A stretch of DNA of 64,000 nt, taken from contig NZ_CP120678.1 of the NCBI RefSeq assembly GCF_030273445.1, forward strand, positions 1,837,501 through 1,901,500. Reading direction: 5' to 3'. Origin of the DNA: Selenobaculum gibii (GTDB taxonomy: Bacteria; Bacillota; Negativicutes; ICN-92133). The notes under the pieces were generated by a model. That model worked only from the letters and a program-made list of their open reading frames with translations, was not told the DNA's origin and made no database searches. Every line of letters starts with the position of its first letter. Position 1 is the stretch's first letter. This document shows, one piece after another, positions 7,156 through 34,218 of this stretch. A program made the translations under genes and the position numbers.

Positions 7156-7908
7156 TCATTTCATTACCCTTCCACCTAATATTCCTAACCATTCATGAAA
7201 AAATATACAGGAAGTTTGTAAAGCGAAACTTGATGGAACCATTTTATTTACATAAAAGTCATTTTTACCACTTACTAAATAATCCGTTGGAACGGGCAAA
7301 GCATCAATGCCTTCTTTCTTAAAATTCATCATAGAACGCTCCATATGAAATGCAGATGTAACTAAGATTGCTTTTTCATATCCATTTTGCTTCATAATTT
7401 CGTGTACCAATTGCGCATTCTGCCGCGTATTTAAACTATTGTCTTCAATGATGATTTTTTCTTCTGCGACACCAATCCCCATTAGCATTCTCTTTGCAAC
7501 TAAAGCCTCTCTGCCTGAATCAGAAAAAACCTTTCCACCAGACACAACAATCGGAATCTTTAGTTGATGTTGTAACCTCGCTGCCATCAATAAACGATTT
7601 GCTGCACTGCCAGATAAGTTTCCCTCTCCATCAATATCCGGAGTTTCCGCTGTAGCACCTCCGCCCAGCATAATGATAACATCCCCATGAATCGTTTCTG
7701 GAACCGTATATCGACTTTCTAAAGAATGAACTAAATAAGAACTAACATAGGAAGTAGAAAAAATATAAAAAAATAATGTAATTCCCATCAAAATTTTTGA
7801 CCAAAACCGATTCGTTCGCCAAATTAAAATACTTACGAAAAAGAAAAGAAGAATAAAAATACCCGGTGGTAATAAAAAAGCAGCTATATTTTTTAAAGCA
7901 TAAATCAA
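7156..7908 (-). CDS. ElyC/SanA/YdcF-type DUF218 membrane protein
   Basis: A 250-residue protein with two N-terminal membrane helices (about residues 9-30 and 38-60) and a DUF218 domain. Motifs are DVIIMLGGGA, GSAANRLLMAARL, IVVSGG, SLNTRQNA and the VTSAFHMERSM segment. ElyC/YdcF relatives act at the cell envelope in Gram-negative bacteria, but a biochemical activity is not established. Start TTG at 7908 with GGGAGG upstream; no better ATG is in frame. Confidence 0.82.
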   Translation of the reverse strand: MIYALKNIAAFLLPPGIFILLFFFVSILIWRTNRFWSKILMGITLFFYIFSTSYVSSYLVHSLESRYTVPETIHGDVIIMLGGGATAETPDIDGEGNLSGSAANRLLMAARLQHQLKIPIVVSGGKVFSDSGREALVAKRMLMGIGVAEEKIIIEDNSLNTRQNAQLVHEIMKQNGYEKAILVTSAFHMERSMMNFKKEGIDALPVPTDYLVSGKNDFYVNKMVPSSFALQTSCIFFHEWLGILGGRVMK

Positions 7909-26890: not shown

Positions 26891-27278
26891 AATATCCTCC
26901 GCTCTAGTATTGTGATATTCAAAACAGCAAGATAAATGGAGACTTAACCATTTGGATAAAACACAATATTGTTTTACTCTTTGCAATAGTACATAAACTA
27001 CAGAGTAAATCAAAAAATTCATATTGTCAATATAAATAAGTCTTGTTTAAGAACTAGATTTAAATTCTAAATTACATCCTATCTTAAATCATTAAAACTA
27101 CAACCTAAGAGTAACCATTCTATCCTATAAAAATATACTATAAGAGAACGTATACTCACATTAGAATTAAACTCCTTTTTTTATACTTAATATCTATAAA
27201 TTCATCGAAAAAATTAAAAATACCATGTTAACATTATTTGGATTCAGCCTTATATTTAATATAGTATTTAACTAAATA
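26891..27278. other. AT-rich intergenic region before the M-box
   Basis: Divergent promoter region between the thioesterase (minus) and the M-box transporter operon (plus). I see no gene, tRNA or clear repeat here; a candidate promoter with TATAGT-like -10 lies near 27260. Confidence 0.5.
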
Positions 27279-27437
27279 GTGCTTCCTCGTTAGGTGAGGC
27301 TCCTATATAAACATAGGCCACTGCCCGGAAATGTCGAGAGACGCCAATGGGTAGAACAGATATTATCAACATAAGGTTTTACTTAAAATGGCAGAGTTTT
27401 AACTTTACTCTACGCTAAACTCAAACGAGTGGTGAGG
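27279..27437 (+). promoter_or_regulatory. M-box (ykoK) magnesium riboswitch
   Basis: The M-box consensus is recognisable along its length: CGTTAGGTGAGGCTCCTATA, then a P2/P3 region with CCACTGCCCGGAAATGTCG, AGAGACGCCAATGGGT, AACAGATATTATCAACATAA and GGTTTTACTTAAAATGGCAG, closed by AAACGAGTGGTGAGG pairing back to CTTCCTCGTT. Established knowledge: M-boxes fold on Mg2+ and stop expression of Mg2+ transporters (mgtE, mgtA, corA). A terminator follows at 27482, then the ABC transporter. Confidence 0.9.
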
Positions 27438-27481
27438 TCATTTACTGCTGTTTTGTTATGCATTTTTCTCGACTTTAGAGA

Positions 27482-27506
27482 CCTTCCTGTTAGGAAGTTT
27501 TTTTTA
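27482..27506 (+). terminator. M-box expression-platform terminator
   Basis: Short stem CTTCCT/AGGAAG (27483-27488 with 27492-27497) directly followed by eight T. Its position between aptamer and coding region fits Mg2+-dependent premature termination. Confidence 0.75.
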
Positions 27507-27623
27507 TTTGTAAAGGAAATGAGTATAGAGTGAGTGCAAATAGTTCTGATCCTAAAAGTCTTGTACCAGATGTGCTGACCAGCTATTTACACACAAACAC
27601 AATTAAATTAGGAAGTGATTTAT

Positions 27624-29366
27624 ATGTCTGTATTTAGTAGTCACATACCCACCCGTCGGTTTTGTTTCGCCGACATACTGGTTATCGGATTTGTATTTGC
27701 AATCTTGTATTCCCTCCTACATCTGGGAGTAGGAATGACCGTTCCATTTTCAACAGAAGTCCAAATGGAAATTTCCACTGATCCTTCTGATTTACCTTAT
27801 TATGCTGGACGGTCACTTCTTAGAATGTTTTTAGCTTATGGTGCATCTCTAATTTTCACTTTGATTTACGGTAGTATTGCCGCTAAAACTCGTATAGCGC
27901 AAAAGGTTCTCATTCCACTATTGGATATTTTACAATCTGTGCCGGTACTTGGATTTCTGTCTATTACTATTACCATGTTTATGGGACTATTTCCCGGTAG
28001 CTTGCTAGGTGTTGAACTTGCTTCCATCTTTGCTATTTTTACCGGACAGTGTTGGAATATGACTTTTAGTTTTTATCATTCGCTGATTACAATTCCTAAA
28101 GAACTTCATGAAGCGGCGGCAGTACTTCGCTTGAATTGGTGGCAACGATTTATTCACTTGGAAGTACCTTTTTCCATGATTGGCTTAGTATGGAACAGCA
28201 TGATGTCCTTTGGCGGCGGTTGGTTTTTTCTGGCGGCTAGTGAGGCTATTACCGTTCTCAATGAAAGTATCCGGTTGCCTGGTGTTGGATCTTTCATGGC
28301 TACTGCCGTAGAAGAAGGCAATATGAAAGCACTCGTTTATGCTATTTTAACGATGGTTATTATGATTGTGCTGATTGACCAACTTTTTTGGCGTCCACTT
28401 GTAGTATGGTCGCAAAAATTTAAAATGGAACGAACAGAAGCTCTTGAAGTTCCAACCTCATTTGTATACGACATTTGTAAACAATCGATATTTTTAGTAT
28501 GGTTACAAAAATATGCATTAATTCCTCTGTGGAAAATATTTTATAATATATTTAATTTTATCGCCCATGTTACTAATCGAACATCAGCTAAAATTCAAAG
28601 TATCACTTCCTGTTCTTATTTATCTTTCACTATAAAATGGACCTTGTTTTCTATAACGCTGTACTACACAGCACAACAAGCTTATGAAGGCTATCATATG
28701 ATGGCCTCTATGGGATTTGAAAAGCTGGTAAATATTATCCAAGCTGGGTTCTACACTCTTGGGCGAGTAATGGCGTCCAGCCTAATCGGGCTACTATGGA
28801 CAGTGCCTGTTGGAGTTTGGATCGGAACCAGTCCTAAGTTAAGTAAAATTTGTCAACCCATTGTGCAAGTAGCGGCTTCTTTTCCGGCAAATATGATCTA
28901 TCCTTTCCTTGCTATATTCTATATAAAATACGCTGTTAACTTTGAATTTGGTGCCATTCCCCTAATGATGCTTGGTACTCAATGGTATATTTTATTTAAT
29001 GTAATCGCCGGCGCTATGGCAATTCCTAACGACTTAAAAGAGGTTGCTACAGTCTTTAATCTTTCCAAATGGCAAAGATGGCGTAAACTGATTTTGCCAT
29101 CCATCTTTCCCTACCTCATTACCGGTTGTCTCACTGCTTCTGGTGGCGCCTGGAATGCTAGTATTGTATCCGAACTGGTAATTTGGAAATCTAATCAACT
29201 CAGCGCTACAGGTCTAGGAAGCTTCATTAACCAAGTTACAGCTACGGGCGATTGGCCAGGGATTATTAGCGGTATTACCGTCATGTGTGCTTTTGTCGTC
29301 CTGATTAACCACTTGTTTTGGCGCAAACTTTATCAACTAGCTGAAACTAAATACCATTTGAATTAA
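27624..29366 (+). CDS. Duplicated ABC permease (COG4986-like) under M-box control
   Basis: A 580-residue permease made of two fused binding-protein-dependent transport domains (about residues 60-270 and 350-575), each with an EAA loop: EAAAVLRLNWWQRF and EVATVFNLSKWQRW. This matches the duplicated permeases of the nitrate/sulfonate/bicarbonate-type (NitT/TauT) ABC group. About 11-12 hydrophobic helices. ATG at 27624 has AGGAAGTG upstream. Followed after 14 bp by the ATPase. No substrate-binding protein gene is next to it. The riboswitch suggests a Mg2+-related substrate (inference). Confidence 0.9.
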   Translation: MSVFSSHIPTRRFCFADILVIGFVFAILYSLLHLGVGMTVPFSTEVQMEISTDPSDLPYYAGRSLLRMFLAYGASLIFTLIYGSIAAKTRIAQKVLIPLLDILQSVPVLGFLSITITMFMGLFPGSLLGVELASIFAIFTGQCWNMTFSFYHSLITIPKELHEAAAVLRLNWWQRFIHLEVPFSMIGLVWNSMMSFGGGWFFLAASEAITVLNESIRLPGVGSFMATAVEEGNMKALVYAILTMVIMIVLIDQLFWRPLVVWSQKFKMERTEALEVPTSFVYDICKQSIFLVWLQKYALIPLWKIFYNIFNFIAHVTNRTSAKIQSITSCSYLSFTIKWTLFSITLYYTAQQAYEGYHMMASMGFEKLVNIIQAGFYTLGRVMASSLIGLLWTVPVGVWIGTSPKLSKICQPIVQVAASFPANMIYPFLAIFYIKYAVNFEFGAIPLMMLGTQWYILFNVIAGAMAIPNDLKEVATVFNLSKWQRWRKLILPSIFPYLITGCLTASGGAWNASIVSELVIWKSNQLSATGLGSFINQVTATGDWPGIISGITVMCAFVVLINHLFWRKLYQLAETKYHLN

Positions 29367-29380
29367 AGGGGAAAAGCATT

Positions 29381-30676
29381 ATGAGTAAACATGCTCTGAT
29401 AGAATTAAAAAATGTCCAGAAAAAATGGGATATGGGTGGTAATGCTACTATTCCAGTTTTGACTAACATAAACCTCACCATTCGCGCTGGGGAGTTTCTT
29501 GCAATATTGGGCCCATCCGGCTCAGGAAAATCTACTCTTCTCCGCATTATCGCTGGGCTAACGCCAGTCAGTTCTGGGGAAATAATTTATTTAGGGAAGG
29601 AATATCACGGTGTAAACCCTGGTGCTGCTATGGTATTTCAGTCCTTCGCTCTATTCCCTTGGTTAACAGTATTAGAGAATGTAACGCTTGGTTTGGAATC
29701 TAAGCCCATTGCTGATGATGAAAAGAAAGAAAAAGCATTGCACATTATCGATGTAATTGGCCTTGATGGTTTTGAAAATGCATACCCCAAGGAGTTATCA
29801 GGTGGTATGCAGCAACGTGTTGGACTTGGGCGCGCTTTAGTAAGTGACCCCGATGTACTCCTGATGGATGAACCTTTTTCTGCCTTGGATGTATTAACAG
29901 CAGAGAATCTCCGGCGAGATTTATTAAAACTTTGGCGAGATAAAAAGATTCCCACCAAGACGATCATCATGGTAACCCATGGCATTGAAGAAGCTGTCTA
30001 TATGGCTGACCGTATAATCGTAGTATCTGGTAACCCGGCACGCATTAATTACGATATGCAAGTTACTTTACCTCATTGTCGAGATAAAAAGGACCCATTG
30101 TTTACCAATTTCGTTGATAAACTATATTCTCTTATGATGAAGAAAGAACATATTGAGACGCATAGAGTCATTACTGTGAAAAACCGCGAAATAGCCATGA
30201 TTCCTCAGGTATCAGCAGGTGCACTTACTGGTTTTTTGGAGTTTCTAAAGGATCTGAACAAAAAAACCGACTTATATAAATTAGCTGATCGTTTTATGAT
30301 GGACAGTGAAGACTTTTTTCCTATTGTCGAAGGTACTACACTTCTCAAGTTTACTAAAGTCACAGACGGAGATATTGAACTTACACCGGAAGGTATTCTT
30401 TTCGCTCAAGCTTCCGTACTAGAGCGGAAGAAATTATTCCGCTCTCAACTTATACAACATGTACCTTTTATTAATAAAATTATAGCCATACTACAATCAA
30501 AATCTAATAAACGCATGAGCATTGAATTTTTTGAAGATATTTTGACCAATTCATTTTCCCCAACAGAAGTCCAAAAGCACATGAATATTCTAATCACTTG
30601 GGGACGCTACGCCGAATTGTTTGCATACGATGAAAAAAGCAAACAACTGTATCTAGAGGATACTACAAATTCCTAA
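29381..30676 (+). CDS. ABC ATPase with C-terminal AAA-associated domain
   Basis: The 431-residue partner of the duplicated permease. The N-terminal ABC domain (1-240) resembles SsuB/TauB ATPases: Walker A GPSGSGKST, signature LSGGMQQRV, Walker B VLLMDEP, His switch in MVTHG. The C-terminal part (about 270-425) matches the AAA-associated domain found on some NitT/TauT-like ATPases (COG4754/PF09821), probably a helical regulatory domain. RBS AAAGGGG before ATG. Ends before a strong hairpin. No binding protein follows. Confidence 0.9.
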   Translation: MSKHALIELKNVQKKWDMGGNATIPVLTNINLTIRAGEFLAILGPSGSGKSTLLRIIAGLTPVSSGEIIYLGKEYHGVNPGAAMVFQSFALFPWLTVLENVTLGLESKPIADDEKKEKALHIIDVIGLDGFENAYPKELSGGMQQRVGLGRALVSDPDVLLMDEPFSALDVLTAENLRRDLLKLWRDKKIPTKTIIMVTHGIEEAVYMADRIIVVSGNPARINYDMQVTLPHCRDKKDPLFTNFVDKLYSLMMKKEHIETHRVITVKNREIAMIPQVSAGALTGFLEFLKDLNKKTDLYKLADRFMMDSEDFFPIVEGTTLLKFTKVTDGDIELTPEGILFAQASVLERKKLFRSQLIQHVPFINKIIAILQSKSNKRMSIEFFEDILTNSFSPTEVQKHMNILITWGRYAELFAYDEKSKQLYLEDTTNS

Positions 30677-30700: not shown

Positions 30701-30760
30701 AAACCCCCAGCTGAGCTGGGGGTTTTATCATGCCTGTTCGGCGTCATTAATTTTATTCAT
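30701..30760 (+). mobile_element. Hairpin and possible relic of an IS605-type 3-prime end
   Basis: A perfect stem AAACCCCCAGC/GCTGGGGGTTT (30701-30711 with 30715-30725) followed by TTTTATCATGCCTGTTCGGC. It can terminate the ABC operon. The same layout (CCAGC-hairpin, then CAT, then a GCCTGnnnGGC stem) recurs at 63770-63815, so this may be a remnant of the same kind of element end. The terminator role is safe; the mobile origin is inference. Confidence 0.4.
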
Positions 30761-32132: not shown

Positions 32133-33962
32133 TTATTCAACTGTAACCGATTTTGCAAGGTTACGAGGTTTATCAACGTCACAGCCTCTTGTAATTGCTG
32201 CATAATAAGCAAGCAATTGAAGTGGAACAACAGCTAAAAGCGGTGCCAATAATTCATCTGTCGTTGGTACTTTAATAATATGATCCACATATTTTTCAAT
32301 TTGATCATCATTTGCAAGTGCTATCCCAATAACGACTGCATCACGCGCTTTTACTTCTTTAATATTACTCAAAGTTTTTTCATAAACACTTTCTTGCGTA
32401 GCAAGTGCAATCACTGGTACACCTTCAATAATAAGTGCTAACGTACCGTGTTTTAATTCTCCTGCCGCATACGCTTCCGCATGAATATAGGAAATTTCTT
32501 TTAATTTCAATGAACCTTCTAACGCTACAGCATAGTCTAAGGAACGTCCAATAAAGAACACATCTTCATTAAATCCATATTTTTGCGCAAACGTTTTAAT
32601 TGGTTCGACATCTTCAAGAATTTCATGAATCTGACTTGGCACTTGACGAAGTGCACCAATGAGATGTTTTGTATAATCTTTTTCAATCGTTTTCTTAATC
32701 TCAGACATATAAAGAGATAACATAAACATCATGATCAATTGTGTTGTATAAGCTTTTGTAGAAGCAACCGCAATTTCAGGTCCAGCCCAAGTATAAACTA
32801 CTTGATCTGCTTCACGAGCAATAGATGAACCAACTACATTCGTTACCGCTAACGTTTTAGAACCAAGGCGTTTCGCTTCTTTTAGTGCAGCTAAAGTATC
32901 ACTTGTTTCTCCTGATTGACTGATTACGATAGTTAACGTACGATCATCAATAATCGGGGAACGATATCTAAATTCAGATGCAATGTCCACTTCAACTGGG
33001 ATACGAGCCAATTTTTCAATATAATACTTGCCAACAAAGCCTGCATGATATGCCGTACCACAAGCAACGATGAAAATTTTGCGAATAGAATTTAAAAACT
33101 CTTTATTCCATTTTAATTCATCCATTACGATAGCACTATCATCTTTTGCAATACGTGCAGACATTGTTTCACGAACCGCTTTGGATTGTTCATAGATTTC
33201 TTTTATCATGAAATGTTCATAGCCGCCCTTTTCCGCAGCTTCTGCATCCCAATTTACTTCAAATACTTTCTTCGTAATTGGCACACCTTCACGATTTGTA
33301 ATCCAAACAGAATCCGATTTTACAACAGCAATTTCTCCATCACTTACAATATATGTTTTACGCGTTCTGGCAATAATTGCAGGAATATCAGAAGCGATAA
33401 AGTTTTCTCCTTCACCAAGGCCAATCACTAATGGATTGTCTTGTTTCGTACAAATTAATCTATCCGAGTCATGGCGAGACATAAATACAAGAGAATAAGA
33501 TCCTTCAATTTTCTTTAATACTTTACGAACAGTTTCTTCAAAGTTACCATCATATAATTCTTCCATTAAATGCGCAACAACTTCTGTATCTGTTTCTGAA
33601 GTAAATACATGACCTTTTTCAATTAAATCTTCTTTTAGGTGCAAGTAATTTTCAATAATTCCATTATGAACGACAACAAAATCACCTGTACAATCTGTAT
33701 GTGGATGAGAATTGCGATCAGATGGGCGACCATGTGTTGCCCATCTTGTATGCCCAATACCAACCGTACCAGTTGGAAGATTATTTTTAATTTTTTCTTC
33801 TAAAGCATTTAAACGTCCTACGCTTTTTTCTACATTTATTTTTTCACCATCAAATACCGCGATACCAGCCGAATCATAACCGCGATACTCAAGTTTTGTT
33901 AAACCTTCAATCAAAAACGGCGTTGCTTGCGCTGCGCCTACATAACCAACAATACCACACAT
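32133..33962 (-). CDS. glmS: Glucosamine-6-phosphate synthase
   Basis: Makes glucosamine-6-phosphate from fructose-6-phosphate and glutamine, the first step to UDP-GlcNAc. The 609-residue protein begins MCGIVGYVG (Cys2 nucleophile of the glutaminase half), has two SIS isomerase domains (SQSGETSDT, CGTAYHAG, VASTKAYTTQ) and ends KSVTVE. A glmS ribozyme in its leader provides product feedback. Confidence 0.98.
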   Translation of the reverse strand: MCGIVGYVGAAQATPFLIEGLTKLEYRGYDSAGIAVFDGEKINVEKSVGRLNALEEKIKNNLPTGTVGIGHTRWATHGRPSDRNSHPHTDCTGDFVVVHNGIIENYLHLKEDLIEKGHVFTSETDTEVVAHLMEELYDGNFEETVRKVLKKIEGSYSLVFMSRHDSDRLICTKQDNPLVIGLGEGENFIASDIPAIIARTRKTYIVSDGEIAVVKSDSVWITNREGVPITKKVFEVNWDAEAAEKGGYEHFMIKEIYEQSKAVRETMSARIAKDDSAIVMDELKWNKEFLNSIRKIFIVACGTAYHAGFVGKYYIEKLARIPVEVDIASEFRYRSPIIDDRTLTIVISQSGETSDTLAALKEAKRLGSKTLAVTNVVGSSIAREADQVVYTWAGPEIAVASTKAYTTQLIMMFMLSLYMSEIKKTIEKDYTKHLIGALRQVPSQIHEILEDVEPIKTFAQKYGFNEDVFFIGRSLDYAVALEGSLKLKEISYIHAEAYAAGELKHGTLALIIEGVPVIALATQESVYEKTLSNIKEVKARDAVVIGIALANDDQIEKYVDHIIKVPTTDELLAPLLAVVPLQLLAYYAAITRGCDVDKPRNLAKSVTVE

Positions 33963-34019
33963 AAAAGGATTCCTCCAATAAATTAAAATTCACATGATTA
34001 TATTTTTTACTATATTACT

Positions 34020-34151
34020 GATTAAACTGCTTTGTCATACAAATCACTTTGTATTTTTCTCAGTTATTCACGACCTCAGTCAGCCGAGAGGCATCCGCCG
34101 ACAATTCGATAAACCTCTCCCTCGTCATCTCATCAAATGAGAGCTAGCGCT
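34020..34151 (-). promoter_or_regulatory. glmS self-cleaving ribozyme
   Basis: On the minus strand the ribozyme core is complete: A|GCGC cleavage site at 34151/34150, then ACGAGG-GAGAGGTTTATCGA, TGTCGGCGGATGCCTCTCGG and CTGA, followed by P3/P4-like pairing (AATACAAAGTG/ATTTGTAT). It lies about 60-190 bases upstream of the glmS start. Established knowledge: cleavage needs glucosamine-6-phosphate as cofactor and destabilises the mRNA. The 3-prime limit is approximate. Confidence 0.95.
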
Positions 34152-34218
34152 ATAATTATTTTATGATATTCTCTTTACAAATATTCTATCCGCCTCCTTT
34201 TTGTCCTTTACATAGAAC

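Follow-up and report, generated by a model that had tools for sequence, protein, structure and literature searches.

In Selenobaculum gibii, an M-box riboswitch aptamer stands upstream of a two-gene operon that encodes a duplicated ABC permease and an ABC ATPase with a C-terminal AAA_assoc_C domain (PF09821). The leader has the architecture of a terminator/antiterminator switch, no cognate binding protein is encoded near the pair, and the association of the aptamer with these two genes recurs in other genomes. Because this link is found in at least two phyla and probably three, the pair is probably an undescribed route of Mg2+ uptake. We consider it likely that the operon is repressed by Mg2+ and encodes a binding-protein-independent type I ABC importer of Mg2+, or of a small Mg2+ complex, that serves when the ion is scarce. 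The window referred to below is the whole stretch of S. gibii DNA that was analysed (64,000 nt), and the coordinates of the operon and its leader are collected in Table 1.

Table 1. Features of the S. gibii operon and its leader, in window coordinates
Feature	Position	Strand	Details
Promoter-like site	27228–27256	+	TTAACA-17-TATATT; consensus match only, 10 of 12 positions; ~23 nt 5′ of the aptamer
M-box (Mg2+) riboswitch aptamer, RF00380	27279–27440	+	101.3 bits, E = 2.3e-21
Site of the missing P2 3′ strand	27408–27422	+	CTCTACG then CTAAACTC in S. gibii, CTCTACG-TTATACAGTGC-CAAAGCTC in relatives; 50-M-box alignment
Predicted antiterminator, 5′ part	27431–27445	+	overlaps P1 3′ strand GAGGTC; duplex with terminator-proximal GACCTTCC segment, −11.1 kcal/mol
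Predicted antiterminator, 3′ part	27475–27487	+	overlaps terminator 5′ arm; same −11.1 kcal/mol duplex
Predicted intrinsic terminator	27483–27505	+	6-bp stem and T8; −5.5 kcal/mol
Duplicated ABC permease, COG4986-like, 580 aa	27624–29366	+	two BPD_transp_1 stretches
ABC ATPase with C-terminal AAA_assoc_C domain, 431 aa	29381–30676	+	PF00005 and PF09821
AAA_assoc_C domain (PF09821), residues 299–417	30275–30631	+	130.9 bits; winged-helix-like elements predicted from the secondary structure of the model
Operon-end terminator	30701–30726	+	CCCCCAGCTGAGCTGGGGG stem then TTTT; read directly in the sequence

The operon and its leader in S. gibii

The covariance search matched RF00380 over its full length (model positions 1–169), far above the curated gathering cut-off of 44 bits, and this is the sole M-box in the 2.68-Mb host genome. 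The first-pass annotation, made from the letters alone, had placed a clear M-box before a two-gene operon; the M-box and its position are borne out, but the copy is not a textbook one, since it has lost the 3′ strand of P2, which had gone unnoticed. Approximately 11 nt, TTATACAGTGC in relatives, are gone after the CTCTACG at 27408–27414, so that the P2 helix is not intact. This strand is kept in all 13 other linked copies of the class, with a change on the 5′ side in one of them (genome G044), and its loss explains why the S. gibii score falls below theirs (146–164 bits in 12 of the 13). The deletion is possibly an assembly error. The window also holds, on the minus strand, a glmS ribozyme (34014–34162) upstream of glmS (32133–33962) and a Cobalamin riboswitch (1226–1402).

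In most linked leaders a terminator comes after the aptamer, and the P1 3′ strand (approximately −15 to 0 relative to the end of the aptamer) pairs with the terminator's 5′ arm; as read from the sequences, this is the standard M-box OFF-switch. The S. gibii leader has the same kind of switch, in which the P1 3′ strand takes part, albeit with a weak terminator that was located by consensus scan and direct folding after an automatic terminator finder had missed it. Together, the P2 loss and this terminator make the switching of the S. gibii copy itself uncertain, though that of its relatives looks intact, and they suggest that control of the operon is weakened in this genome. There is thus some chance, on balance against, that the S. 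gibii riboswitch is decaying and that its operon is constitutive or weakly regulated while relatives are still controlled by Mg2+, a situation compatible with Mg2+ uptake as the function of the family. Besides the lost nucleotides, the energetics point this way, as the terminator is outweighed by the antiterminator and the terminators of class relatives reach −12 to −19 kcal/mol, and in one case −29 kcal/mol. Decay sits less well with the retention of P1 and of the core segments GUCGAGAGACGCCAA, AACAG and UAAGG, with the fact that the nearest relatives are 84% identical where the sequences align, and with a score so far above the cut-off. In either case, the P2 defect leaves the inference for the family untouched.

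The permease probably starts at ATG 27624 rather than at GTG 27615, because relatives align from that methionine and an AGGAAG ribosome site precedes it. Its two BPD_transp_1 domains are those of a COG4986 permease, and the ATPase combines ABC_tran with AAA_assoc_C, which confirms the original description of a duplicated NitT/TauT-type permease and an ATPase with a C-terminal domain. Neither protein reaches the cut-off of a curated equivalog with a named substrate (best for the permease, ntrB with 82 bits versus 209; best for the ATPase, SaoA with 221 bits versus 360), and neither belongs by sequence to CorA, MgtE, MgtA or NrmT, since Pfam assigns BPD_transp_1 to the permease and ABC_tran with AAA_assoc_C to the ATPase. 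Sequence comparison puts CmpB and NrtB closest to the permease. The AlphaFold models, moderate in quality (mean pLDDT 72 and 75), place the ATPase nearest to NrtBCD and CmpBCD; for the permease, the closest fold is that of Thermus FbpB, a fused ferric-ion permease, followed by CmpB/NrtB. The Foldseek matches comprised a wide variety of NBDs and MetI-fold permeases. No acidic pore residues peculiar to the permease family were found, the obvious candidates being common to CmpB.

No gene adjacent to the S. gibii pair encodes a binding protein, and in 112 loci with complete pairs a lipobox heuristic, as distinct from a profile search, detected none that could be ascribed to the pair; both results agree with what the first reading of the locus had claimed. 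The sole clear lipoprotein binding protein near a pair, in one genome (L096 and L108), looks amino-acid-like and is followed by its own permease. In the host, the NitT/TauT-type binding proteins each lie beside their own permease and ATPase, and the pair lacks the cognate periplasmic binding protein of a NitT/TauT importer. Family searches of the host genome revealed one CorA, no MgtE, and no MgtA above the cut-off; among class genomes with the pair, MgtE above the cut-off was found in none of 20.

Recurrence of the M-box link

Our class survey covered 251 genomes, 55 of them with an M-box; downstream genes were read at 61 M-box loci, with targets assigned by Pfam on representatives. The ABC pair follows the aptamer at 14 loci, spread over 14 genomes and nine families, whereas 46 loci lead to known Mg2+ transporter genes or operons: 34 to an MgtE_N-CBS protein and/or the Nramp-like NrmT (one being CorA with MgtE), and 12 to MgtA-type P-ATPases. 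The MgtE_N-CBS representative is devoid of the MgtE membrane domain, and such genes often share operons with NrmT. The one remaining locus, the second M-box of genome G059 (L045:6809–6977, minus strand), lies upstream of an RluD-like pseudouridine synthase (L045:5717–6604, minus strand) and was set aside. A low-scoring subgroup (L032–L042; 85–110 bits), whose 5′ end is of the GGTAGGTGAGGCTACC type and whose 3′ region is shorter, occurs only before MgtA-type P-ATPases. Tandem M-boxes, approximately 250–310 nt apart, precede MgtE_N-CBS or NrmT genes in genomes of families f6 and f13 (L069, with G005:C1:483920 and 484228, as well as G024, G036, G056, G061, G071, G044 and G012).

PF09821 is present in 22 of the 251 class genomes. 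Where a genome holds both PF09821 and an M-box, the latter is directly upstream on the same strand in 14 of 16 cases, against 0.016 expected. By coordinate comparison in a phylum-wide sample, the same holds, upstream and on the same strand, for 14 of 17 further genomes with both (0.046 expected). Against a combined chance expectation of approximately 0.06, to be read with the caveat that the genomes are related and their loci are not independent events, this recurrence lends good support to the proposal of the first-pass annotation that the pair is a candidate Mg2+ uptake system. Two phylum loci with larger gaps keep the order M-box, permease, ATPase; one of these has its PF09821 gene ~10 kb further on.

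A scan of 84,980 species genomes yielded more than 570 relatives. M-boxes outside the class were sought with a covariance model built from the class M-boxes and then confirmed by Rfam RF00380; the survey of neighbourhoods thus returned linked loci in the class, in the phylum and in further phyla. The pair is closely preceded by an M-box in Paenibacillus, Alicyclobacillaceae, Clostridium sp. OS1-26 and two genomes of Bacillota family f56, as well as in one Anaerolineae and one Ktedonobacteria genome of the Chloroflexota. In Nocardia seriolae the M-box stands ~1 kb upstream, and this link is the least secure because of the long gap and because no terminator was found there. From these matches, the link holds in at least two phyla and probably in a third. 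In Streptomyces orinoci, the pair lies between two outward-facing M-boxes (L128:3311–3484, minus strand, and 7248–7421, plus strand), one of which precedes an Nramp-like gene.

Two Bacillota families (f48 and f124) have a three-gene operon with an Rfam-confirmed M-box, in which AAA_assoc_C is a separate protein of ~160 aa. The split form was seen at L226, L228, L229, L230, L231 and L278, and in L278 the AAA_assoc_C gene lies ~10 kb from the operon.

Most cyanobacterial and proteobacterial copies of the pair have no M-box, and neither do those of six class genomes, in two of which an M-box precedes MgtA instead; the pair is therefore not always under M-box control. Mapped onto the permease tree, presence of the M-box requires 10 changes, of which well-supported branches force no fewer than 8, so the link has been gained or lost repeatedly. 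Regulation by a different riboswitch elsewhere was rejected, as none was found to control the pair in 39 loci, the SAM riboswitch at L109 pointing the other way. As the RNA scores as an M-box, no other riboswitch serves the genes in these loci and no cognate binding protein was found, the proposal withstood those of its refutation tests that can be computed.

Substrate, mechanism and alternatives

Bacterial Mg2+ uptake is established for CorA, MgtE and MgtA/B and, since 2014, for NrmT. The last of these was identified via its M-box and subsequently shown to transport Mg2+ (PMC4072509), and the same reasoning leads us to infer Mg2+ as the substrate of the ABC pair. M-box regulation is in itself no proof of substrate, and several observations weigh against Mg2+ uptake: the nearest solved relatives carry anions (nitrate for NrtB, bicarbonate for CmpB), the host has its CorA, some copies of the pair are without an M-box, and the S. 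gibii leader has an incomplete P2 and a weak terminator.

The main rival explanation, in our estimate an unlikely one, is that the pair imports some other compound needed when Mg2+ is short, such as a polyamine, an anion that binds Mg2+ (citrate or phosphate, for instance) or potassium, with low Mg2+ acting as the cue. The fold shared with the anion importers NrtB and CmpB would suit this reading, and mycobacterial M-boxes also govern genes other than classical Mg2+ transporters (PMC12810186). Nearly all other M-box targets in the class, however, are Mg2+ transporter genes or their operon partners, and no conserved neighbour of the pair indicates another substrate. Moreover, in several genomes, S. 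gibii included, no M-box target other than the pair was found, so that another substrate would leave a Mg2+ switch there without a Mg2+ transporter to control.

It is improbable that Mn2+ or some other divalent ion is what these M-boxes sense and the pair imports. In the crystalline state, M-box RNA is able to bind Mn2+, according to work cited in PMC4072509, and one mycobacterial M-box group precedes genes of the manganese-transporter type (PMC12810186); yet the linked class aptamers, S. gibii and G044 excepted, align with the MgtE_N/NrmT M-boxes and have no distinct core, and the Nramp-related M-box gene of Clostridium acetobutylicum that was tested transported Mg2+ (PMC4072509).

Even less weight attaches to a reading in which the pair is a membrane sensor acting via its winged-helix-like domain, which we judge highly improbable. 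The absence of a binding protein is in keeping with a sensor, and a 2012 paper doubted whether the system still transports (PMC3688454). By contrast, the ATPases show no variation in their Walker A, signature and Walker B motifs, both permease halves have conserved EAA-type loops, and two families encode the winged-helix-like domain as a protein of its own, in or near the operon.

The C-terminal domain itself has no solved relative by sequence. Its AlphaFold model consists of helix and strand-pair units, compatible with the winged helix predicted in PMC3688454, and the domain looks like a cytoplasmic winged-helix regulator rather than a substitute for a binding protein, given that it is fused to a cytoplasmic ATPase. 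The earlier idea that it replaces a binding protein does not fit a winged-helix-like domain carried on that ATPase or, in the two families with the split form, made as a separate protein.

Returning to Mg2+ import, we envisage the following mechanism. At high Mg2+, the M-box would fold and P1 would form, allowing the terminator to arise and turn the operon off; at low Mg2+, the 3′ strand of P1 would pair with the terminator arm and the operon would be on. A single permease chain would supply the two halves of the pore, and transport, presumably inwards, would be powered by an ATPase homodimer. The winged-helix-like domain probably detects a signal in the cytoplasm and regulates the ATPase accordingly. 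This regulatory role is proposed by likeness to the importers MetN, ModC and NrtC, whose C-terminal domains control their ATPase.

Relation to known systems and significance

The gene family had already been described in 2012, when CLIBASIA_02415/02420 of the plant pathogen Candidatus Liberibacter asiaticus was reported as an Nrt/Ssu/Tau-like 'possible novel ABC system', its substrate left open (PMC3688454). The Liberibacter system shares the single permease with two membrane domains, the PF09821 ATPase and the lack of a binding protein, but that paper noted neither a riboswitch nor a link to Mg2+. In the open-access literature we found no earlier report of an M-box before an ABC transporter or of a Mg2+ link of the pair; hence, of the claim that the pairing was undescribed, the part concerning the riboswitch stands as far as could be searched, while the part concerning the genes does not.

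NrtBCD and CmpBCD, the cyanobacterial importers of nitrate and bicarbonate, offer the closest solved ATPase structures and the closest permease sequences. They differ in their anion substrates, separate single-domain permeases, dedicated binding protein and the binding-protein-like domain on NrtC, whereas the S. gibii pair has a fused permease, no binding protein and another C-terminal domain on its ATPase. NrmT is similar in its regulatory logic, being likewise a member of an unexpected transporter family revealed by an M-box; it has another fold, is not driven by ATP, and its transport has been demonstrated experimentally (PMC4072509). The M-box of Bacillus subtilis mgtE (ykoK) belongs to the same RNA family and has the same OFF-switch layout, while the S. 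gibii copy precedes another gene and is without the P2 3′ strand.

If our reading is true, an ABC importer of Mg2+ would add a class with a distinct mechanism, powered by ATP and working with no periplasmic capture protein, and a function would be assigned to a very widespread uncharacterised family. The M-box-linked loci form a directly testable list, some of them in laboratory-tractable genera. More broadly, and with the balance evenly poised, the PF09821/COG4986 pair may constitute a new class of ATP-driven, binding-protein-independent Mg2+ importers, widespread in Bacillota, Actinomycetota, Chloroflexota, cyanobacteria and Proteobacteria, in which a winged-helix-like domain would exert control from the cytoplasm.
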